DNA from: Cupriavidus taiwanensis LMG 19424
GTDB taxonomy: Bacteria > Pseudomonadota > Gammaproteobacteria > Burkholderiales > Burkholderiaceae
DNA: 64,000 bases
Assembly (NCBI RefSeq): GCF_000069785.1
Contig: NC_010530.1
Location: forward strand, 1,978,001 to 2,042,000
Reading direction: 5' to 3'
Shown here: positions 2,177 to 12,325 of the stretch, piece by piece
How positions within the stretch are numbered: position 1 is the stretch's first letter
Layout: each line of letters opens with the position of its first letter
Notes under the pieces: generated by a model
The model's database searches: none
What the model saw: only the letters and a program-made list of their open reading frames with translations
What the model was told of the DNA's origin: nothing
Translations under genes and position numbers: made by a program

Positions 2177-3190
2177 TCAGGGGGTAACGTCCTGCGACGC
2201 CCCCACCATGGTCAGCGCGTTGCCGTGCTCGTCCAGCGTGACCTCGCCTTCCTCGTGGATGTCGCGCAGGCTGCCGTCCGGCAGCTGGATGCGGTAGTCG
2301 ACCCGATACGGCGCCTTGTCGACGATGGCGGCGCGGATCGCGGCCTGCACGCGCGGGCGGTCCGCTTCGACGATCGACGCCAGGTAGCGCTCCATGGTCA
2401 CCTTGAACGCCTGCGGGGCCCAGCCGAAGATGCGATAGGCCTCATCGGTCCAGGCGCAGTCGTCGGTCTGGATGTTCCAGTACCAGCCGCCCAGGTGGGC
2501 AATCTGCTGCGCCTTGGCCAGCAGCGCCTCGCTCTGGCGCAGCGCGGCCTCGGCGCGGCGGCGCTCGGTAATGTCCAGGCTGACGCCAATCATCTTGACC
2601 GGGCGCTGGTCGAAGTCACGCACCAGCGTGGCCCGCGACGAGATCCAGCGCGTGTTGTCCTCATGCACCACGCGGAATTCCCACTCGTGCATCTCCTGCG
2701 CGCCCAGCGTGCGCGCCAGCACTTCCTTCAGCCGCGCCACGTCGCCGGGATGCACGCAGGCCCAGAAATCGTCCATGCTGCGGATATGGCGGCCGAATAG
2801 CGAGACGTCGTTGGACGAATAGGTCAGGCCATCGGTCAGCACGTTCCATTCCCAGGTGACGATGCCCGAGACCTCCTGCGCAAACTTCATCCGCGCTTCG
2901 CTCTCCATGATCTCGGCGAGGTGTTTCTGGCGCAGTTCCTTGATGTGCGGGTCGGACGCGGTGCTGGCCTCGAGATCGGCAATGGCCTGCTCGCCGTAGC
3001 GCAGCCACAGCCAGTTGACGCCCAGATAGCGGGCCAGCGCCAGCAGGCGCTCGTATTCGATCTCGCCGCCGCGCGTCCACTTGTGCACGGCCGACGGCGA
3101 TACCGACAGGGCCTCGGCCACCTGCTTAAGCATGATCCTTTTGCCTTCCAGCACCCCCTTCAGGCGCGTGGCAAAAGTGTCTTCGGTCAT
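2177..3190 (-). CDS. Transcriptional regulator: Cro/C1-type HTH plus two PAS domains
   Basis: 337 residues. The start at MTEDTFATRL is chosen because GGAGGAGCG lies just upstream. A Cro/C1-like helix-turn-helix covers about residues 8-66 (LKQVAEALSVSPSAVHKW). Two PAS/PAC folds of the PAS_3 type follow, at about 104-210 and 230-336; the first ends in the typical PAC tail VSLDITERRRAE. No kinase or output domain follows, so this is a one-component sensor in which ligand or redox sensing by PAS should alter DNA binding by the N-terminal domain. It is divergent from the Rieske oxygenase gene, and matching palindromes lie at its own start, at the oxygenase promoter and at the permease promoter. 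It is therefore the best candidate regulator of that whole block, probably a repressor from the operator positions. Confidence 0.85.
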   Translation of the reverse strand: MTEDTFATRLKGVLEGKRIMLKQVAEALSVSPSAVHKWTRGGEIEYERLLALARYLGVNWLWLRYGEQAIADLEASTASDPHIKELRQKHLAEIMESEARMKFAQEVSGIVTWEWNVLTDGLTYSSNDVSLFGRHIRSMDDFWACVHPGDVARLKEVLARTLGAQEMHEWEFRVVHEDNTRWISSRATLVRDFDQRPVKMIGVSLDITERRRAEAALRQSEALLAKAQQIAHLGGWYWNIQTDDCAWTDEAYRIFGWAPQAFKVTMERYLASIVEADRPRVQAAIRAAIVDKAPYRVDYRIQLPDGSLRDIHEEGEVTLDEHGNALTMVGASQDVTP

Positions 3191-3209: not shown

Positions 3210-3226
3210 TTCAACCGATGGTGAAT
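3210..3226. promoter_or_regulatory. Operator of the PAS-regulator set, autoregulatory copy
   Basis: TTCAAC-N5-GTGAAT, a 17-bp imperfect palindrome 19 bases upstream of the regulator start codon. It has the same half-site spacing and inner YAC/AAC-N5-GTR core as the four sites at 3355-3390 and 9375-9410. Autoregulation is inferred. Confidence 0.55.
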
Positions 3227-3316
3227 TGAGTAACTCGAACCTTACACCATCGCTGCAAATCACGCGAATCGATAGGCTAAGACAATTATCCCTTCACTTC
3301 GAATCGCTTTTTTGAA

Positions 3317-3346
3317 TTGCAACACCCCAACTCTTCTCACTAGACT
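3317..3346 (+). promoter_or_regulatory. Sigma-70-like promoter of the Rieske oxygenase operon
   Basis: TTGCAA (3317-3322), an 18-base spacer, and TAGACT (3341-3346). Transcription would start near 3353, immediately before the tandem palindromes at 3355-3390. That geometry fits repression. Confidence 0.5.
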
Positions 3347-3354
3347 TTCCCTCA

Positions 3355-3390
3355 CATCACTGATGGTAATTTAATTTACTGACAGTGAAT
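3355..3390. promoter_or_regulatory. Tandem operator pair before the Rieske oxygenase operon
   Basis: Two 17-bp palindromes: CATCAC-N5-GTAATT (3355-3371) and ATTTAC-N5-GTGAAT (3374-3390). Their centres are 19 bp apart, with 2 bases between them. The same pair, with the same 19-bp spacing, occurs at 9375-9410. The sites lie at about +1 to +38 relative to the proposed transcription start. Confidence 0.7.
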
Positions 3391-3425
3391 TAACAAAGCA
3401 CCAAAGATCAACGAGGAGACACCCC

Positions 3426-4547
3426 ATGCAACAGACCGCCGCCCCCGCCTGCAGCACCACGCCGCCGCTCGCCTACACGCTGCCGGCCCACTACTACACC
3501 TCGCAGGAGGTCTTCGAGCAGGAAAAGAAGACCATCTTCGCGCGCAGCTGGGTGTGCGTGATGCACAAGAGCCAGGTGGCCGAGAACAACCAGTACGCCA
3601 CCGCCCAGGTGGCAGGCGAGAACATCTTCGTGGTGCGCGGCCGCGACGGCGTGCTGCGCGCGTTCTACAACGTGTGCCCGCACCGCGCGCACGAGCTGTT
3701 CGCCGATGGCGCCGGCAAGGCGAAAAACGTGATCACCTGCCCTTATCACGCCTGGTCGTTCGGACTGGACGGCAAGCTGATCCACGTGCGCAACGCCGAG
3801 AACGTGCCGGGCTTCTGCAAGGACAACGCCGGCCTGACGCCGGTGCGCGTGGAAGAGTTCTGCGGCCTGGTGTTTGTCAACCTGGACATGGACGCGAAGC
3901 CGCTGGCCGAACTGGCCGCGGGCCTGAACGACGAGATCCGCGCACGCTGCCCGGACGTCGACAAGCTGGTGCCGGCGCACAAGCTCACCTACGAGATGAA
4001 GGCCAACTGGAAGGTGGTGGTCGACAACTACCTGGAATGCCTGCACTGCCAGACCGCGCACCCGGCGCTGGTCGAGTCGATCAAGATGGAGACCTACAAG
4101 CACGAAGTGCGCGGCCTCTACACCAGCCAGGTCGGCCAGACGCGCTCGGGCAGCGATGCCTTCACCTATGACAGCGACGCCCCCAACACCGACTTCGCCG
4201 CCTACTGGCTGTGGCCCAACGTCACGCTGAACGTGCTGCCGGGCGACGGCAACTACGGCGTGTTCTACATGTTCCCGGTGGATGCCGACACCACCATCCA
4301 GCACTTCGAGTTCTACTTCCGCGACAGCACGCCCACGGCCGAGCAGGAACAGCTGATCGAGTACTACAAGAACGTGCTGAAGCCCGAAGACCTGAGCATC
4401 GTCGAATCGGTGCAGCGCGGCCTGAAGTCGCGCGGCTACCGCAACGGGCAAGGCCCGCTGCTGGTCACCGACGACAAGACCTCCGCCATCGGCGAGCACG
4501 GCGTGCAGCACTTCCAGCAGATGGTGCTCGACGCCCTGGCCGCCTGA
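3426..4547 (+). CDS. CntA/YeaW-like Rieske oxygenase, alpha subunit
   Basis: 373 residues, the usual length for carnitine/betaine-type oxygenases. The Rieske cluster ligands are C84-x-H86 and C105-x2-H108. The mononuclear iron site is H207, H212 and D322. E204 in NYLECLHC takes the place of the bridging aspartate of most ring-hydroxylating oxygenases; a glutamate there is a mark of the CntA group. The C-terminal PEDLSIVESVQRGLKSRGY block is also shared with that group. Known members hydroxylate quaternary amines (carnitine, gamma-butyrobetaine, choline, glycine betaine, stachydrine), causing C-N cleavage or demethylation. It is the first gene of an operon with two dehydrogenases, and its likely reductase lies at 11372. 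The exact substrate is not readable; a trimethylammonium compound is the best guess. Confidence 0.87.
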   Translation: MQQTAAPACSTTPPLAYTLPAHYYTSQEVFEQEKKTIFARSWVCVMHKSQVAENNQYATAQVAGENIFVVRGRDGVLRAFYNVCPHRAHELFADGAGKAKNVITCPYHAWSFGLDGKLIHVRNAENVPGFCKDNAGLTPVRVEEFCGLVFVNLDMDAKPLAELAAGLNDEIRARCPDVDKLVPAHKLTYEMKANWKVVVDNYLECLHCQTAHPALVESIKMETYKHEVRGLYTSQVGQTRSGSDAFTYDSDAPNTDFAAYWLWPNVTLNVLPGDGNYGVFYMFPVDADTTIQHFEFYFRDSTPTAEQEQLIEYYKNVLKPEDLSIVESVQRGLKSRGYRNGQGPLLVTDDKTSAIGEHGVQHFQQMVLDALAA

Positions 4548-4575
4548 ACCTACCAGATCAACCGGAACCGCAGCA

Positions 4576-6042
4576 ATGATCCAGACCCAGCTCTATATCG
4601 ACGGCCAGTGGCAGTCGCCCATCGACCAAGGCACGCGCGCCATCGTCAGCCCGGCCGACGAATCGGTGATTGCCCAGGCCGCCGAAGCCACCCGCGCCGA
4701 TGCGCGCCTGGCGATTGCGGCCGCGCGCCGGGCCTTTGACGGCCCGTGGCGTCAGACCACGATCCGCGACCGCGCCAGGCTGCTGAACAAGATCGCCGAC
4801 CTGATCGACCGCGATGCCGAAAAGCTCGCCCATCTGGAATCGCTCAACACCGGCAAGACGCTGACCGAAAGCCGCACCGACATGGGCGATATCGCCGCCA
4901 CCTTCCGCTACTTTGCCGGGCTGGTGGCGTCGGAATCGGGCGCCGTCAACGAAGCGCCGCACCATGTCATCAGCCGCACGCTGCGCGAGCCGGTCGGCGT
5001 GTGCGGCCTGATCACGCCGTGGAACTACCCGCTGCTGCAAGCCGCGTGGAAGATCGCGCCCGCGCTGGGCGCCGGCAATACCGTGGTGATCAAGCCCAGC
5101 AACCTGACGCCGCTGACCACGCATCATTTCACGCAGCTGATCGCCGAGCTGGACCTGCCGCCGGGCGTGTTCAACCTGGTGACCGGCGGCGCCGAAGTGG
5201 GCGCGGAACTGGCCGAAAGCCTCGACGTGGACCTGGTGTCTTTCACGGGCGGCGCGTTTGCCGGCGAAAGCATCATGAAGGCCGCCACTGGCAACTTCAA
5301 GCGCATCGGCCTGGAGCTGGGCGGCAAGAATCCGAATATCGTCTTTGCCGATGCCGACCTCGATGCCGCGGTCGACTACGCGCTCAACGCCGCGTTCTTC
5401 CACGCCGGCCAGGTCTGTTCCGCCGGTTCGCGCCTGATGGTGGAAGACAGCATCTATGATGCATTCATCGGCCGGCTGGCCGAACGCCTGCCGCGCATCG
5501 TGATCGGCAACGGCTTCCATGGCGAAACCCAGATGGGCCCGGTGCAGTCGGCGCAACAGCACGAGAAGATCCTCGGCATGGTGCAGGCCGGCATCGCCGA
5601 GGGCGCGCGCCTGGTCCACGGCGGCAAGCGGCCGGCGGGCGACGTGTTCAGGAAGGGCTACTGGCTGGAACCGACGCTGCTGGCCGACGTGACGGCCGGG
5701 ATGAAGATTGCGAAGGAGGAGATTTTCGGGCCGGTGATCACTGCCGAGCGCTTCCGCTCCGAAGCCGAAGCGCTGCGTGCCGCCAACGACACGCCATACG
5801 GCCTGGCCGCCGCGGTGTGGACCCGCGACCTGGACAAGGCCAACCGCATGTCGCGCGCGCTGCGCTTCGGCACGGTGTGGGTCAACGACTACCACCCGTA
5901 CTTCCCGGAAGCGCCGTGGGGCGGCTACAAGGCGAGCGGCATCGGCCGCGAGCTGGCCCGTATCGGCCTGGACGAGTACACCGAGCTCAAGCACAGCTAT
6001 ATCAATCTCGCCCCGAAGGCGATGGGCTGGTTCGGCGCCTGA
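4576..6042 (+). CDS. Aldehyde dehydrogenase, betaine-aldehyde dehydrogenase-like
   Basis: 488 residues, full ALDH length. Catalytic residues are visible: N150 in TPWNYP, E247 in LELGGKNPN and nucleophile C281 in GQVCSAGSR. The loop SFTGGAFAG replaces the more common SFTGGTxTG. The family oxidises aldehydes to acids with NAD(P)+. The gene follows the oxygenase after 28 bases and precedes the GMC dehydrogenase. It would therefore oxidise the aldehyde released by oxygenase C-N cleavage, or betaine aldehyde formed by the GMC enzyme. Cytoplasmic. The family is certain; the specific substrate is inferred from context. Confidence 0.88.
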
Positions 6043-6128
6043 GCGCAGCCGACTTCGCAATCGCGTGCGCGGCGGCACCGCCCCATGGGCCGCCACGCAC
6101 GGCGTCACGCAAACAAGGAGATTGCACC

Positions 6129-7859
6129 ATGCAGGCAATCCATGAATACGACTACATCATCGTCGGCGCCGGCTCGGCCGGCTGCGTGCTGGCGGCGCGG
6201 CTGAGCGAGGACGCCGGTGTCTCGGTGCTGCTGCTGGAGGCCGGCGGCCCCGACTGGCGCCTGGACTGGCGCACGCAGATGCCGGCCGCGCTGGCGTATC
6301 CGCTGCAGGGCACCACCTACAACTGGGCCTATGTCACCGAGCCCGAGCCGCACATGAACAACCGGCGCATGACGCAGGGCCGCGGCAAGGGCCTGGGCGG
6401 GTCATCGCTGATCAACGGCATGTGCTATATCCGCGGCAATGCGATGGACTATGACGGCTGGGCGGAAACCCGGTCGCTGGAGAACTGGAGCTACGCCGAC
6501 TGCCTGCCCTACTTCCGCAAGGCCGAGACCTACGACAAGGGCGCCAACGACTACCACGGCGGCAACGGCCCGCTACACGTGACCACGCCCAAGGCCGGCA
6601 TCAGCCCGCTGTTCGACGCCTTTATCAAGGCCGGCGAGCAGGCCGGCTACGGCCGCACCGACGACCTCAACGGCTTCCGGCAGGAAGGTTTCGGCCCGAT
6701 GGACCGCACCACCACCGCGGGTGGGCGCCGCTGCAGCACCTCGCTCGCCTACCTCGACCAGGCCCGCGAGCGTCCCAACCTGACCGTGCATACGCGTGCG
6801 CTGGCCGACCGCATCCTGTTCGCCGGGCAGCGCGCCATCGGCGTGTCGTATCTCCAGGGCGACCACGTGCGCGAAGCCCGGGCGCGGCGCGAAGTAATCG
6901 TCAGCAACGGCGCGATCGCGTCGCCGCAGCTGCTGTTGCGCTCCGGCGTGGGCAATGCCGACGAACTGCGGGCGTTCGGCATCGATCCGGTCGTCGACCT
7001 GAGGGGCGTGGGCGAAAACCTGCAGGACCACCTGGAGATGTACCTGCAGTACGAATGCACCAAACCGGTCTCGCTGTATCCGGCGCTGCAGTGGTGGAAC
7101 AAGCCGGCGATCGGCATCGAGTGGTACCTGCGCGGCACCGGCACGGCGGCGTCCAACCACTTCGAGGCCGGCGGCTTTATCCGCAGCAGCGACGAGTTCG
7201 CCTGGCCCAACCTGCAGTACCACTTCATCCCGCTGGCGATGAACTACGACGGCAGCAACCCGGTGAAGTCGCACGGCTTCCAGTGCCACGTGGGCTCGAT
7301 GCGCTCGCCCAGCACCGGCTTCGTCAAGCTGGCCAGCCGCGATCCCCGCGTCAAGCCCCGCCTGTTGTTCAACTACATGGCGCACGACGTCGACTGGCGT
7401 GAGTTCCGTGCCGGGGTGCGGCTGACGCGCGAGATCATCGGCCAGCAGGCGATGGACCAGTTCCGCGGCCGCGAGATCAAGCCCGGCATGATGGTGCAGA
7501 GCGACGCCGAGATCGACGCCTTCGTGCGCGAGCATGCCGAGACCGCGCTGCATCCGTCCTGCACCTGCAAGATGGGCGACGCCTCCGACCCGATGGCCGT
7601 GGTCGACAACCAGGGCCGCGTGCACGGGCTGTCGGGCCTGCGCGTGGTCGACGCGTCGATCATGCCGAAGATCGTCACCGGCAACCTGAACGCGCCCACC
7701 ATCATGATGGCCGAGAAGCTCGCCGACGTGATCCGTGGCCGCGCGCCGCTGCAGCGTTCGACCGCGCCTTACTACAAGGCGACGCCCGCGCGCATGCAGA
7801 CGGTGGCGGAGCGCGGGCAACCGCCTGCCGCGCGCATGCCGCTGCCGATGCCTGCCTGA
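6129..7859 (+). CDS. GMC-family FAD oxidoreductase, choline-dehydrogenase-like
   Basis: 576 residues from the ATG behind AAGGAG. The FAD dinucleotide fold GAGSAG is at residues 13-18, and the GMC signature [18 protein letters not shown] is near residue 90. The active-site pair is H475 ([10 protein letters not shown]) and N521 (GNLNAPT), arranged as in BetA. Family members oxidise alcohols, passing electrons to quinone or oxygen. Next to a betaine-aldehyde-type ALDH it may convert choline or another amino-alcohol to the aldehyde. The C-terminal tail of about 30 residues is Pro/Arg/Ala-rich and not conserved. Third gene of the oxygenase operon. Confidence 0.88.
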
Positions 7860-7877
7860 CCCCAGCGGCGCGGCGCG

Positions 7878-7936
7878 CGGGCCTTCGGCCCGAACCCTGA
7901 CTGCGGCACCTGTGCTGCCGGGACCAGCGTCCCGGC
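7878..7936 (+). repeat. Two strong hairpins between the GMC and porin genes
   Basis: CGGGCC-TTC-GGCCCG (7878-7892), then GCCGGGAC-CAGC-GTCCCGGC (7917-7936), a perfect 8-bp stem. Neither is followed by a T-run, so they look like transcript-stabilising or processing structures inside the operon rather than standard terminators. Confidence 0.5.
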
Positions 7937-8036
7937 GGGCAGCGTGCGCCCGGTCGGACGCGCCGCGCCTCCACCCCCACCAAAGCCGGCAACCCAACAC
8001 ACAAACCCAGACCGGCTGCACGGAGGAGACACAACC

Positions 8037-8936
8037 ATGTTGCGCAAAACCTTTGCCGCCAGACCAGCGCTGTCCTGCGCCCTGTCAGGCGCCTTGCCTC
8101 TGCTGCTGTGCCAGGCGCTGCCCGCGCTGGCGCAGGCCGACGGTGACACTACGCTGGCTGTCGCGCCAGTGCCGCAGGTCACCGCCACCGTTCCGCCCGC
8201 CGAGGCCGCCGCGGCAACTTCGCCCTGGAGCGCCAACATGACGCTGACGTCCCAGTACGTGTCGCGCGGTTTCCGCCAGACCTGGGGCAAGCCCGCGGTG
8301 CAGGGCGGCGTCGACTACAGCCACCCGAGCGGATTTTCCGCCGGCACCTGGATGTCGAGCATCAGCGACAAGTTCATCGAGGGCGGCACGGTCGAATGGG
8401 ACCTGTATGCCGGCTATACGGGCAGCGTCGGTGACTTCGTCTATGCGGGCCAGGTCTACTACTACCTCTACCCCGGCGCGAAGCTGCAATACGCGCAGAC
8501 CAAATACAACTATGGCGAAGCGGTCGCGTCGCTGACGTACAAGTGGTTCAACGTCAAGTACTGGCTGACCTATACGCCCGACTACTTCGGCTACAACAGC
8601 GCCTCGCTGCTGTCCGGCAACGACCTGCACAGCCGCGGCTCCGGCTACCTGGACATCAACGGCACCTTCGACCTGGGCCATGGCGTCACGCTGCTGCTGC
8701 ACTACGGCCAGGAGCGCGTGCGCAACTTCGCCGCCTACAGCTTCCGCGACGTGCGCGTGGCGCTGTCCAAGGCCTTCGAGGGTGGCTGGACCGTGACCGG
8801 CGCCTACACGCGCGGCTGGGGCCGCACCGACGTCTACGACAAATACACCACCGGCGCGCTGGATTCCTCCGGCAATCCGTCCGTTTCCAATCCGCTGAAA
8901 AGCACGTTCCTGGTCTCGCTGACCAAGACGTTCTGA
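8037..8936 (+). CDS. TorF-type outer-membrane protein (putative porin)
   Basis: 299 residues from the ATG behind GGAGGAG. A signal peptide ends near ALPALAQA. The mature part is rich in aromatic and alternating hydrophobic residues, with strands such as WSANMTLTSQYVSRGFRQT and a C-terminal phenylalanine (SLTKTF), typical of outer-membrane beta-barrels. The SRGFRQT start fits the TorF/TIGR02001 family of putative porins. In this operon it would let the substrate cross the outer membrane, upstream of the APC permease. Family membership is recognised by pattern; the transport role is inferred. Confidence 0.75.
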   Translation: MLRKTFAARPALSCALSGALPLLLCQALPALAQADGDTTLAVAPVPQVTATVPPAEAAAATSPWSANMTLTSQYVSRGFRQTWGKPAVQGGVDYSHPSGFSAGTWMSSISDKFIEGGTVEWDLYAGYTGSVGDFVYAGQVYYYLYPGAKLQYAQTKYNYGEAVASLTYKWFNVKYWLTYTPDYFGYNSASLLSGNDLHSRGSGYLDINGTFDLGHGVTLLLHYGQERVRNFAAYSFRDVRVALSKAFEGGWTVTGAYTRGWGRTDVYDKYTTGALDSSGNPSVSNPLKSTFLVSLTKTF

Positions 8937-8982
8937 CGGCATTCATCAACCGCTGTACCACTGCCTGACGAAGCACACCACC

Positions 8983-9294
8983 ATGGCCTCCCTGGGTCTT
9001 ACCGACGCAACCGGACTTGTCGGCGTTGCCGCCTACGTTGCCGCGCATTTTGCCGTGCAGGTCCTGCACAAATCCCCGACCGGCAGGCTGGCCGTCGTCC
9101 TCAACGTGATCGGGCCGAGCTGCATCCTGATCTCGCTGGCGGGCGCGTTCAACCTCGCGTCGTTCCTGACCCAGTGCTTCTGGCTGGTCCTGACATTGCT
9201 GGGCTGGTGGCGCAATCGCCGGGCCGGACGCGCTGGGCGCCCGCTGGTGGAAACGCTGGGCGGCCCGCGCCCCGGACAGCCCGTGCAGCAGTAG
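8983..9294 (+). CDS. Small inner-membrane protein, 103 aa
   Basis: Three hydrophobic stretches are visible: around residues 10-27, 36-57 and 60-76. A basic, glycine/proline-rich tail follows (RRAGRAGRPL). It resembles the CBU_0592-like family of small membrane proteins, whose function is unknown. It lies 46 bases after the porin gene, on the same strand and probably in the same transcript. It may be an accessory membrane component of the uptake system, but nothing in the sequence shows this. Confidence 0.6.
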   Translation: MASLGLTDATGLVGVAAYVAAHFAVQVLHKSPTGRLAVVLNVIGPSCILISLAGAFNLASFLTQCFWLVLTLLGWWRNRRAGRAGRPLVETLGGPRPGQPVQQ

Positions 9295-9340
9295 CAAAGC
9301 GGGACGTCCGGGCACTTCGCAGCGCGATACAAAACTTCCG

Positions 9341-9369
9341 TTGCCTTGGCCCGGCGCCGTTCCTATACT
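9341..9369 (+). promoter_or_regulatory. Sigma-70-like promoter of the APC permease/reductase unit
   Basis: TTGCCT (9341-9346), a 17-base spacer and TATACT (9364-9369). Transcription should begin near 9376, at the first operator of the pair. Confidence 0.6.
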
Positions 9370-9374
9370 CACCA

Positions 9375-9410
9375 AAACACCGTAGGTGATCTAATTTACT
9401 TTTGGTAAAT
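9375..9410. promoter_or_regulatory. Tandem operator pair before the APC permease
   Basis: AAACAC-N5-GTGATC (9375-9391) and ATTTAC-N5-GTAAAT (9394-9410). The second is a perfect palindrome in its half-sites. The centres are 19 bp apart, exactly as in the pair at 3355-3390, and the position just after the -10 element is the same. Confidence 0.7.
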
Positions 9411-9481: not shown

Positions 9482-9529
9482 ATGAGAAACGCCCCCAGAA
9501 TCCCCGCCAGACATTCCCGACCGTCGTAA
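9482..9529 (+). CDS. Possible 15-codon leader peptide
   Basis: ATG at 9482 follows CAGGAGACAACC, a good ribosome-binding site, and encodes MRNAPRIPARHSRPS before TAA. It lies in the permease leader, 103 bases upstream of the permease start. No attenuator structure is evident. It may be a leader ORF or a chance ORF with a good Shine-Dalgarno site. Confidence 0.3.
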   Translation: MRNAPRIPARHSRPS

Positions 9530-9632
9530 TCCCGGCAGGCAGTACCGCAACGTACCCACCCAGACCGCAGACGGCAGACCGTGACGGAGCCTAGCTCCCG
9601 CAACACGGCGACCCGGGAAGCAAGGAGACATC

Positions 9633-11291
9633 GTGTATTCACAGAAAGACGTGCTGTCGCTCGGCGCGCAGGCGCCGCTCGCCCCCGCGCAGCAACCGCA
9701 GCAGCAAACCCAGCAACAAGCCCCATCGCATGAACTGCAGCGCACGCTGACCTGGAAGGACGCCTTCTGGGTCACCAGCGGCGTGCCCGCGGGCGTGCTC
9801 TTCACCATCGGCGGCGTGTCCGCCACCATCGGCAACCCGGCCTGGGTGATCTGGATCCTGGCCATCCTGGTCGGCTTTGCCCAGTGCTTCGTCTACGCCG
9901 AGATCTCGGGCCTGTATCCGCACAAGTCGGGCGGCGCGTCGGTGTACGGCGCGATGGGCTGGGTCCGCTACAGCAAGTTCGTCGCACCGGTTTCGGTCTG
10001 GTGCAACTGGGTGGCGTGGTCGCCGATGCTGGCGCTCGGCACCAGCCTGGCGGCCGGCTATATGCTGAGCGCGCTGTTCCCGGCCGATTCCGTCATCAAC
10101 ACCTGGCAGCTGACGCTGGTGGACCTGGGCTTCGTCAGCAAGGGCCTGACGCTGCGGGTGAATTCCACCTTCCTGCTCGCCACCGCGTTCCTGCTGATTA
10201 CCTTCAAGCTGCAGCACAGCGGCGCCTCCGCGGCGGCGACCACGCAGCGCATCCTGGGCATCGCCTCGCTGACGCCGCTGGTGGTGATCGCGCTGGTGCC
10301 GCTGTTCACCGGCGACATGCCCTCGACCAGCTTCTTCCCGCTGCTGCCGCTGACGCATGACGCTTCCGGCGCCGCGGTGCTGGGCGGCTGGAACGCCGCC
10401 GGCATCAGCACGGCGATGGGCGCGATGTTCCTGGCTTGCTGGTCGACCTTCGGCTTCGAGACCGCGGTGTGCTACACCCGCGAGTTCAAGGACCCGCAGA
10501 AGGACACCTTCAAGGCGATCTTCTGGTCCGGCGTGCTGTGCCTGTTCATGTTCATCGCGGTGCCGATCGCCTTCCAGGGTTCGCTCGGTCTGCAGGGCAT
10601 GCTGGCACCCGACATCATCGACGGATCCGGCGTGGGCGCGGCGATGGCCAGGTTCGTCGGCGGCGGCGCGGTGGTATTCAACGTGATCGTGGTGATGCTG
10701 GTGCTGGCGATCCTGCTGATCGTGATGACCTCGATGATGGGCTCGTCCCGCACGCTGTACCAGGCGTCGGTCGACGGCTGGCTGCCGCGCTACCTTTCGC
10801 ACGTGAACGAGCACGGCTCGCCCACGCGCGCGATGTGGACGGACCTGCTGTTCAACCTGTTCCTGCTGCTGATGTCGAACTACATGGCAGTACTGTCGAT
10901 CAGCAACGTCTGCTACATGATCTTCGTGTTCCTGAACCTGCAGTCTGGCTGGATCCACCGCATGGACCGTCCCGACTGGCCGCGGCCGTACAAGTGCAAG
11001 AACTGGCTGCTGGCGCTGGGCGCGTTCCTCGGCTTCTTCGACCTGGCCTTTGTCGGCGCCGGCGCCAACTTCCAGGGCGAACACACGCTGCGCAACGGCC
11101 TGATCGCCGCGCTGCTGATCGTGCCGGTCTTCATCTACCGCCACTACATTCAGGACAAGGGCCGCTTCCCCGAGTCGATGCGCCGCGACATGGAACTGCC
11201 CAACGCGCGCGCCGGCGTCCTGCCCTATGTGGCGCTGGTCGTCGGCGCGCTGGTGGTGTGGATTGCCGCCAGGCTGACGGTGATCACCTGA
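9633..11291 (+). CDS. APC-superfamily amino acid/amine permease
   Basis: 552 residues from a GTG behind AAGGAG. A Gln/Pro-rich N-terminal tail of about 38 residues precedes a 12-14 helix membrane core. The first helix has the APC-type glycine-rich break (FWVTSGVPAGVLFTIGG), and the SRTLYQASVDGWLP motif lies in the second half. Members are proton- or antiport-driven carriers for amino acids, amines and related cations. The shared operator pair and the neighbouring reductase gene link it to the Rieske oxygenase pathway, so it probably imports the quaternary amine or an amino-acid-like betaine. The specificity is unknown. Confidence 0.85.
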   Translation: MYSQKDVLSLGAQAPLAPAQQPQQQTQQQAPSHELQRTLTWKDAFWVTSGVPAGVLFTIGGVSATIGNPAWVIWILAILVGFAQCFVYAEISGLYPHKSGGASVYGAMGWVRYSKFVAPVSVWCNWVAWSPMLALGTSLAAGYMLSALFPADSVINTWQLTLVDLGFVSKGLTLRVNSTFLLATAFLLITFKLQHSGASAAATTQRILGIASLTPLVVIALVPLFTGDMPSTSFFPLLPLTHDASGAAVLGGWNAAGISTAMGAMFLACWSTFGFETAVCYTREFKDPQKDTFKAIFWSGVLCLFMFIAVPIAFQGSLGLQGMLAPDIIDGSGVGAAMARFVGGGAVVFNVIVVMLVLAILLIVMTSMMGSSRTLYQASVDGWLPRYLSHVNEHGSPTRAMWTDLLFNLFLLLMSNYMAVLSISNVCYMIFVFLNLQSGWIHRMDRPDWPRPYKCKNWLLALGAFLGFFDLAFVGAGANFQGEHTLRNGLIAALLIVPVFIYRHYIQDKGRFPESMRRDMELPNARAGVLPYVALVVGALVVWIAARLTVIT

Positions 11292-11371: not shown

Positions 11372-12325
11372 ATGACTGACACGCTCCGCGTACGCGTCGG
11401 CCGCGTCGAACCGCTGGCCGCCGGCATCAAGCGCTTCACCCTGCAACCTTGCGACGGCGGCGCGCTGCCTGCCTTCGACAGCGGCAGCCACGTCGTCGTC
11501 CACATGGACGGCGGACGCCTGCGCAACGCCTACTCGCTCACCAGCACGCTCGGCGAACCCGGCCACTACCAGATCGCCGTGCGGCTGGAAGAAGCCTCGC
11601 GCGGCGGCTCGCGCTTCATGCACGAACAGGTGCGCGAAGGCGATGAACTGCATATCGGCACGCCCGGCAACCTGTTCAGCCTGGACCACGGCGCCGGCCG
11701 CCACCTGCTGATCGCCGGCGGCATCGGCATCACGCCGTTCATGACGCATATCCAGGCGCTGGCCGCGCACGGCGCCGCCTTCGAGTTGCATTACTGCTTC
11801 CGCAACACGCAGTCCGCCGCCTTCCTCGACGTGCTGCCCGCCACGCTGCTGCCCGGCCAGCTGCACCGGTACGAGAGCGACAACGGCACCCTGCTCGACA
11901 TCGCCGCGCTGATCGCCGCACAGCCCGCCGACACCCACGTCTACGTATGCGGCCCGGCCCCGCTCAACGATGCCGTAGTCAACGCCGCACGCGCCGCCGG
12001 CTGGGACCCCGCGCGCATCCACTTCGAGCAATTCCGCAACGAGGTCGACGCCACCGGCGGCGCCTTCGAGGCCGTGCTGCAAAAGAGCGGGAAGACGCTG
12101 CAGGTCGGCGCCGACGAATCGCTGCTGCGCGCGATCGAGAAGGCCGGGATCAAGGTGGACTGCATGTGCCGCGAGGGCATCTGCGGCTCGTGCGAGACCG
12201 CCATCGTCGAGGGCGAGGCCGACCATCGCGACCAGTACCTGTCCGACGCCGAGAAGGCGGCACAGAAGACCATGATGCTGTGCGTGTCGCGGTGCAAGGG
12301 GCAGCGGCTGGTGCTGGATCTGTGA
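11372..12325 (+). CDS. Ferredoxin-NAD(P)H oxidoreductase (PDR/VanB type), partner of the Rieske oxygenase
   Basis: 317 residues. The flavin-binding motif RNAYSLTS is at 51-58, the nucleotide-binding motif GGIGITPF at 116-123, and a C-terminal plant-type 2Fe-2S domain has ligands C266, C271, C274 and C304 (C-x4-C-x2-C-x29-C). This is the phthalate dioxygenase reductase/CntB/YeaX domain order. It takes electrons from NAD(P)H and passes them to the Rieske centre of the oxygenase. It lies 80 bases after the permease, 6.8 kb from the oxygenase, but the shared operators suggest co-expression. No other Rieske oxygenase is in the window. Confidence 0.9.
   Translation: MTDTLRVRVGRVEPLAAGIKRFTLQPCDGGALPAFDSGSHVVVHMDGGRLRNAYSLTSTLGEPGHYQIAVRLEEASRGGSRFMHEQVREGDELHIGTPGNLFSLDHGAGRHLLIAGGIGITPFMTHIQALAAHGAAFELHYCFRNTQSAAFLDVLPATLLPGQLHRYESDNGTLLDIAALIAAQPADTHVYVCGPAPLNDAVVNAARAAGWDPARIHFEQFRNEVDATGGAFEAVLQKSGKTLQVGADESLLRAIEKAGIKVDCMCREGICGSCETAIVEGEADHRDQYLSDAEKAAQKTMMLCVSRCKGQRLVLDL

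Follow-up and report, generated by a model that had tools for sequence, protein, structure and literature searches.

Published work describes BzdR as an XRE-type repressor of a catabolic promoter, with benzoyl-CoA as inducer and more than one protected operator region (PMC3602430); MbdR is counted here as a catabolic repressor of the same type (PMC4424350). Further reports describe MltR, an MmyB-like regulator that combines an XRE-type DNA-binding domain and a PAS-related ligand-binding domain in a single chain (PMC3406030), and the cnt cluster of Acinetobacter baumannii, in which a CntA-type Rieske oxygenase, an aldehyde dehydrogenase and a reductase are found under a local regulator (PMC11353897). 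Here, we analyzed a stretch of 64,000 nucleotides from Cupriavidus taiwanensis LMG 19424 (NC_010530.1, positions 1,978,001 to 2,042,000; referred to as the window), in which a CntA-like oxygenase promoter and a permease promoter each carry a tandem pair of palindromic sites and a gene for a helix-turn-helix (HTH)-PAS-PAS regulator lies on the oxygenase side. As the best explanation, which we consider quite likely, this protein is the autoregulated XRE-type one-component repressor of a catabolic regulon for quaternary ammonium compounds of the choline or carnitine type.

With BzdR, the regulator shares the N-terminal HTH-XRE domain, a C-terminal effector-binding part and the predicted repression of a catabolic promoter (PMC3602430). 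Assignment as a BzdR-like repressor was nevertheless rejected, as the described effector domain of BzdR is shikimate-kinase-like, whereas here it consists of two PAS domains according to Pfam and the structural model; moreover, the pathway is another one and the operator sequence is presumably unlike. MltR, as far as described, carries one PAS-like domain with extra elements, bound myristic acid and belongs to a family tied to antibiotic metabolism in actinomycetes (PMC3406030), in contrast to the tandem PAS_3/PAS_4-type domains and the quaternary-ammonium cluster found here. An MmyB-type ligand-binding domain was not among the Pfam matches. In summary, the regulator appears to work like BzdR and is built somewhat like MltR/MmyB, and by domain content it is a member of neither family. 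In the A. baumannii cluster the regulator CarR is a LysR-type activator, and BCCT transporter and malate dehydrogenase genes are present (PMC11353897), where the window cluster has a choline dehydrogenase, a porin and a transporter of the trimethylamine N-oxide (TMAO)-permease family instead. A literature search, with most subscription papers outside its reach, found no characterized regulator of the HTH-PAS type for genes of choline or carnitine metabolism. A term search in the main text of a study of root-exudate transcriptomes including C. taiwanensis gave no mention of choline, betaine or carnitine (PMC5789663).

Paired candidate operators and their conservation beside the regulator

At the oxygenase promoter, operator O1 (ATCACTGATGGTAAT, 3356-3370, centre 3363) is followed by O2 (TTTACTGACAGTGAA, 3375-3389, centre 3382), and at the permease promoter O1 (AACACCGTAGGTGAT, 9376-9390, centre 9383) is followed by O2 (TTTACTTTTGGTAAA, 9395-9409, centre 9402). 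The dyad centres are 19 bp apart in both cases, and reading as well as scanning of the window confirmed the tandem arrangement that a preliminary description of this DNA had reported. As also stated there, the pairs start 6-9 bases past a -10 element, namely 9 bases after TAGACT (3341..3346, plus strand) at the oxygenase promoter and 6 bases after TATACT (9364..9369, plus strand) at the permease promoter. The presumed -35 elements, both read by eye, are TTGCAA (3317..3322, plus strand, 18-bp spacer) and the also aligned TTGCCT (9341..9346, plus strand, 17-bp spacer). In each pair only the downstream dyad fits the consensus WWNYAC-N5-GTRAWW of the preliminary description, which gave 2 matches over the 64 kb, while each upstream dyad deviates by one base; the looser form YAC-N5-GTR matches all four paired dyads. 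A fifth copy had been placed before the regulator gene, and a single site is indeed present at 3210..3227 (TTCAACCGATGGTGAATT, AAC-N5-GTG), located 20-37 bp ahead of the start codon of the regulator gene, however with AAC instead of YAC, a change also seen at O2 of many relatives. Upstream of it, a candidate extended -10 element of the regulator promoter was found at 3241..3249 on the minus strand (TGGTGTAAG), which is possibly a TTAC-type half-site instead.

For the proposed switch, a regulator dimer would recognize the dyad TNAC-N5-GTNA, and two dimers would occupy neighbouring dyads at the 19-bp centre distance. At both promoters they would cover the DNA from roughly the transcription start to roughly +30 and block initiation or escape. 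One dimer at 3210-3227 would limit the synthesis of the regulator itself. Repressor action is suggested by the location of the sites just downstream of the -10 elements, and two adjacent dimers as well as a single autoregulatory site are suggested by the dyad symmetry. Once the PAS domains sense an inducer, the dimers would release and both transcription units would be made together, with the oxygenase, aldehyde dehydrogenase, choline dehydrogenase, porin and membrane protein genes predicted in one unit and the permease and reductase genes in the other. The inducer would most likely be the substrate or an early product, i.e., a choline-, carnitine- or betaine-aldehyde-like compound.

The regulator (337 amino acids, 2177..3190, minus strand) matched Pfam HTH_3, PAS_3 in two stretches and PAS_4. 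Its HTH_3 domain (PF01381) scored 30.9 bits with a cutoff of 23, placing it in the XRE family, and the two PAS_3 stretches (PF08447) scored 95.1 bits, identifying a PAS sensor. In the AlphaFold model (mean predicted local distance difference test score 89, predicted template modelling score 0.62) the HTH helices are followed by a helix at residues 81-107, a PAS domain, a helix at residues 208-231 and the other PAS domain. Among the proteins matched by structure were the PAS proteins FixL (8js5) and LOV-HK. In the FixL construct, residues 22-147 align with the first PAS domain; these matches identified no cofactor for the PAS domains. Some database names call such proteins histidine kinase or diguanylate cyclase, and neither a kinase/ATPase nor a GGDEF domain was among the Pfam matches. 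The curated matches to PRK09776 and FixL were far below cutoff, with the first PAS region as best stretch. Using an expectation value (E) of at most 1e-30, 182 relatives were found among 8000 candidates scored, and the 120 relatives listed carry the names Cupriavidus, Massilia, Ralstonia, Pseudomonas, Achromobacter, Aeromonas and others.

From regulators closely related to that of the window we obtained 14 loci, 13 of which retain the oxygenase-side region. In the remaining one (L012, Cupriavidus necator A5-1) a deletion at 9506-10942 runs from inside the reductase gene into the regulator gene and takes out the operators together with every gene between the two. The alignment consisted of 13 rows (window and 12 loci), and locus L007 was treated apart. 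With an intact pair defined as NAC-N5-GT twice at 19 bp, the search for the paired motif beside the orthologues, proposed in the preliminary description, was largely successful: the oxygenase-side pair was intact in 12 of 14 regions (window and 11 of 13 loci; Cupriavidus and Neisseriaceae), the permease promoter showed TATACT followed after 7-9 bases by the pair in 9 of 13 loci, and the regulator-side site YAACYNNNGGTGAAT was present in all 13 aligned regions. An earlier pair scan had yielded one extra overlapping pair each in L013 and L014 and had missed L017. Mean column identity was 0.83 for O1, 0.84 for O2 and 0.90 for the regulator-side site, compared to an average of 0.59 for the 155 background columns outside all marked elements. 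Among the promoter elements, the oxygenase -10 reached 0.97 (TAGACT in 11 and TACACT in 2 of the 13 rows), its -35 reached 0.74 and aligns with TTGACG/TTGACA in the Massilia loci, and the regulator -10 candidate reached 0.91 (TACACCA in 11 of 13 rows, TACAGCA in L010 and L011). In all 13 rows the first dyad core follows TAGACT/TACACT after 10-11 bases, as counted with a lenient pattern admitting the Massilia forms. In two Neisseriaceae loci (L013, Crenobacter oryzisoli; L014, Neisseriaceae JH1-16) the permease-reductase unit lies across the regulator, at 11.5-14.7 kb, still with promoter, pair and leader. As the same sites are kept beside the HTH-PAS regulator in several genera, the pairs of the two promoters are very probably its on/off switches.

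Regulator classes, genome searches and alternative explanations

We sorted the regulators into classes A to D, labels of our own with class A as the window type. Of the 299 family genomes, 25 have the oxygenase (E of at most 1e-60), 33 the regulator and 21 both; the 4 oxygenase-only genomes carry the most diverged oxygenases (44-46%). Class B comprises 12 genomes of one genus (g24), the proteins similar to its regulators carrying Ralstonia names, with a regulator 64-66% identical and without an oxygenase match. In all 5 class-B genomes examined, the regulator gene is divergent from genes for an aldehyde dehydrogenase, a GMC-type dehydrogenase, a porin and a membrane protein, and TAGACT, a 19-bp pair (CTC-N5-GTA and CAC-N5-GTG) and the regulator-side site are present. 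As class B keeps the 19-bp architecture on an operon without oxygenase, the sites go with the regulator and not with the enzyme. Together with the conservation beside the orthologues, this argues at the level of sequence for the earlier claim that the sites belong to one Cro/PAS regulator. The one annotated class-B locus (L085) also carries near the regulator a gene for a phosphocholine-specific phospholipase C (4562-6739, TIGR03396 over cutoff), which suggests a release of choline into choline oxidation. The 6 clusters of class C, all examined, have a regulator of 42-43% and an oxygenase of about 50% identity; in every one, a TATATT-like -10 is followed by a pair that has diverged and is spaced at 18 bp. 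Class-D regulators are 50-53% identical over residues 1-224, and 7 of 11 clusters were examined. The recognition helix reads SPSAVHKW in classes A and B and SRPAVHKW in classes C and D. A lenient pair scan was positive for the window (twice), for all 4 class-B loci given to it (of 5 fetched) and for every one of the 6 class-C loci; the window, L092 and L093 also gave a few additional, overlapping matches with different spacings. It found no pair in L101 and L102, the two loci that lack the regulator and have a diverged oxygenase. Operators at the start regions of target promoters, conserved with the regulator, were thus observed in classes A, B and C and not in class D. The probable effector is a quaternary ammonium compound or its aldehyde, since classes A and B have in common dehydrogenase genes of the choline and betaine-aldehyde type, and the clusters of classes C and D are of the CntA type. 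Longer regulator homologues (468-495 amino acids) were seen in five class-B and two class-A loci (L008, L013) of the aligned set; additional PAS families are listed for entries of this length, and the sensor part is therefore of variable length.

For an independent search we built a profile (R1) on 18 promoters taken from other genomes, 13 of oxygenase and 5 of aldehyde dehydrogenase genes, leaving out the window and all permease promoters. Several of its members are closely related to the oxygenase promoter of the window, so the permease promoter is its real test. In the 6.48-Mb genome (E of at most 10, 150 of 253 first-look candidates scored) nothing was recovered besides the pairs of the oxygenase promoter (E 1.9e-8) and the permease promoter (E 0.14); being dyads, the sites matched on both strands. 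Across 34 sources (685 kb), the profile matched the oxygenase or aldehyde dehydrogenase promoters and the 9 permease promoters; L016 and L017 gave weak partial matches, and L012, the 6 class-C, the 7 class-D and the 2 oxygenase-only loci gave none. When pairs spaced at 19 bp were searched for by score, exactly 2 came up in 64 kb, those of the oxygenase and permease promoters, at a threshold chosen after the sites had been seen; base-shuffled promoter regions yielded 0.010 (oxygenase side) and 0.0045 (permease side) pairs per region.

Several observations weigh against the repressor reading. Many class-A loci are closely related, and the alignment rows are hence not independent. In the two Massilia loci the aligned oxygenase-side sites are degraded, with AAA as left half of O1 in both and, in L017, GC as right half of O2, and TATACT plus pair was not found at the permease in L010, L011, L016 and L017 (4 of 13 loci). 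The permease pair by itself scores just the E of 0.14 given above. None of the 7 class-D clusters has a TNACN5GTNA pair (spacings 15-23, 250 bases upstream of the oxygenase); their promoter carries a different, TTAA-rich conserved block with a LysR gene close by, as in the carnitine-type cluster of L096, where LysR, dehydrogenase and BCCT genes, read by eye, accompany an HTH-PAS gene. As class D shares SRPAVHKW with class C, the recognition helix alone does not predict the pair. Finally, the single dyad TNACN5GTNA is not enriched in the window (3 matches versus a shuffle mean of 4.02), although all 3 matches fall within the promoters of oxygenase and permease. In the whole genome, TTNACN5GTNAA has 12 matches, fewer than its reversed control (21). 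Two of the 12 belong to these promoters, and of the other 10, 5 were fetched, none with a partner 19 bp away. Because no genome-wide enrichment of single dyads was found, we dropped it as an argument, and the decisive evidence for the reality of the sites is their conservation.

This lack of over-represented single dyads would fit chance AT-rich palindromes without function in GC-rich DNA; we regard such an origin as very improbable, as the 7 diverged loci keep O1 and O2 at 50-83% identity to the window compared to 14-49% for the remaining intergenic DNA, and as the permease pair was recovered independently by the profile. That another, unlinked regulator binds the pairs and the HTH-PAS-PAS protein controls something else would agree with the class-D clusters, which have a regulator homologue without such a pair. 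This seems unlikely to us, since the sites track the regulator type across classes A, B and C and one lies in the leader of the regulator gene itself; a local regulator also fits the finding of only two genome places by the profile among the candidates scored. PAS regulators can activate. Furthermore, the local LysR-type CarR is described as activating the carnitine cluster of A. baumannii (PMC11353897). The same protein might accordingly bind the pairs and act as activator or dual regulator when the inducer is present, an alternative to which we give a slightly better, still low chance. The position of the sites speaks against it: the first dyad core lies 7-11 bases past the -10 in 13 of 13 oxygenase and 9 of 9 paired permease promoters, i.e., at about the transcription start, and the regulator-side site falls between the presumed regulator promoter and the start codon. 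An activator bound at such a position would be unusual but is conceivable.

Cluster enzymes and the permease leader

The enzymes of the cluster are predicted to break down a choline- or carnitine-like compound. The oxygenase (3426..4547, plus strand as for all following genes unless noted) is a CntA-like Rieske protein with a group Va-type pocket, and CntA (6y8j) is the nearest solved structure (E 2.8e-121). In the alignment to 6y8j the CntA residues Tyr203, Glu205, Cys206, Cys209, Tyr225, Phe258, Asn270 and Tyr315 are kept; they include the cation-pi Tyr203, the bridging Glu205 and the Cys-X-X-Cys motif, read with two reports on CntA and group V Rieske oxygenases (PMC7948474, PMC10952381). 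The full set of carnitine-contact residues was not found. Because Phe replaces Tyr295 and Leu replaces Phe319, carnitine as substrate is not assured; judged from the pocket as a whole, the substrate is likely a quaternary ammonium compound. A match to the glycine-betaine oxygenase over its cutoff was not found in the genome. The aldehyde dehydrogenase (4576..6042) is betaine-aldehyde-dehydrogenase-like (TIGR01804, 603 bits, below the cutoff of 668.6). The choline dehydrogenase of the GMC-type BetA family (6129..7859) scored 885.6 bits with TIGR01810 and alone in the genome exceeds the cutoff of 732.1, with four other places at 484-524. A TorF-family putative porin (8037..8936, TIGR02001 over cutoff) and a CBU_0592-family small membrane protein (8983..9294, NF047864 over cutoff) follow. 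Downstream are the APC-superfamily permease of the TMAO-permease family (9633..11291; NF053774, 787.6 bits, cutoff 690) and the reductase of the oxygenase, with FAD and 2Fe-2S (11372..12325; Pfam Fer2 and DmmA-like_N, all curated NCBIfam matches below cutoff), for which the name CntB-like is suggested by gene position. Beside the regulator, an MFS transporter gene at 630-2101 is split into two overlapping minus-strand frames, i.e., a frameshift or a sequence error.

The permease leader contains a small open reading frame of 15 codons with a Shine-Dalgarno sequence (9482..9529, plus strand). Its start and ribosome-binding sequence were found in 11 of 13 loci (GTG start in L015), with 15 codons in 6 and 21 codons in 5 of them. 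It is followed by a conserved, possibly structured RNA element of about 60 bases (9570..9630, plus strand), from which a profile (R2) was obtained; every search with it scored only part of the first-look candidates, few per genome in the class and order sets. Among the 299 family genomes, a single copy was detected in each of 10, and just these 10 carry a 95-100% identical oxygenase. Besides this genome, the 399 order genomes gave no match, and the 369 class genomes gave 5 matches, all weak and spread over 4 genomes (E 0.003-0.006). Compensatory changes were observed at 2 of 12 base pairs, and the fold was no more stable than shuffled sequences (z -0.49); with fold stability ordinary, the structure rests on modest covariation. 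No known RNA family reached its gathering threshold in the window, the best chance match being Mu-gpT-DE at 15.3 bits versus 49. Control of the permease by a leader peptide or by RNA may add to that by the operators.

The switch is of an ordinary type, paired operators of a local repressor being well known, and the regulator family looks uncharacterized. A wider reading, which we put forward only tentatively, is a family of HTH-PAS one-component repressors whose PAS domains would directly sense quaternary ammonium compounds, whose operator sequence and spacing (19 versus 18 bp) would have co-diverged with the regulator, and in which the permease leader, with its small open reading frame and structured RNA, would form a second layer of control. 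For a regulator family that was not described in the papers searched, and that in the clusters examined adjoins catabolic genes of the choline and carnitine type, a candidate operator and regulon open to testing are now given. This would correct misleading database names of HTH-PAS proteins, and the question of the inducer becomes directly testable.

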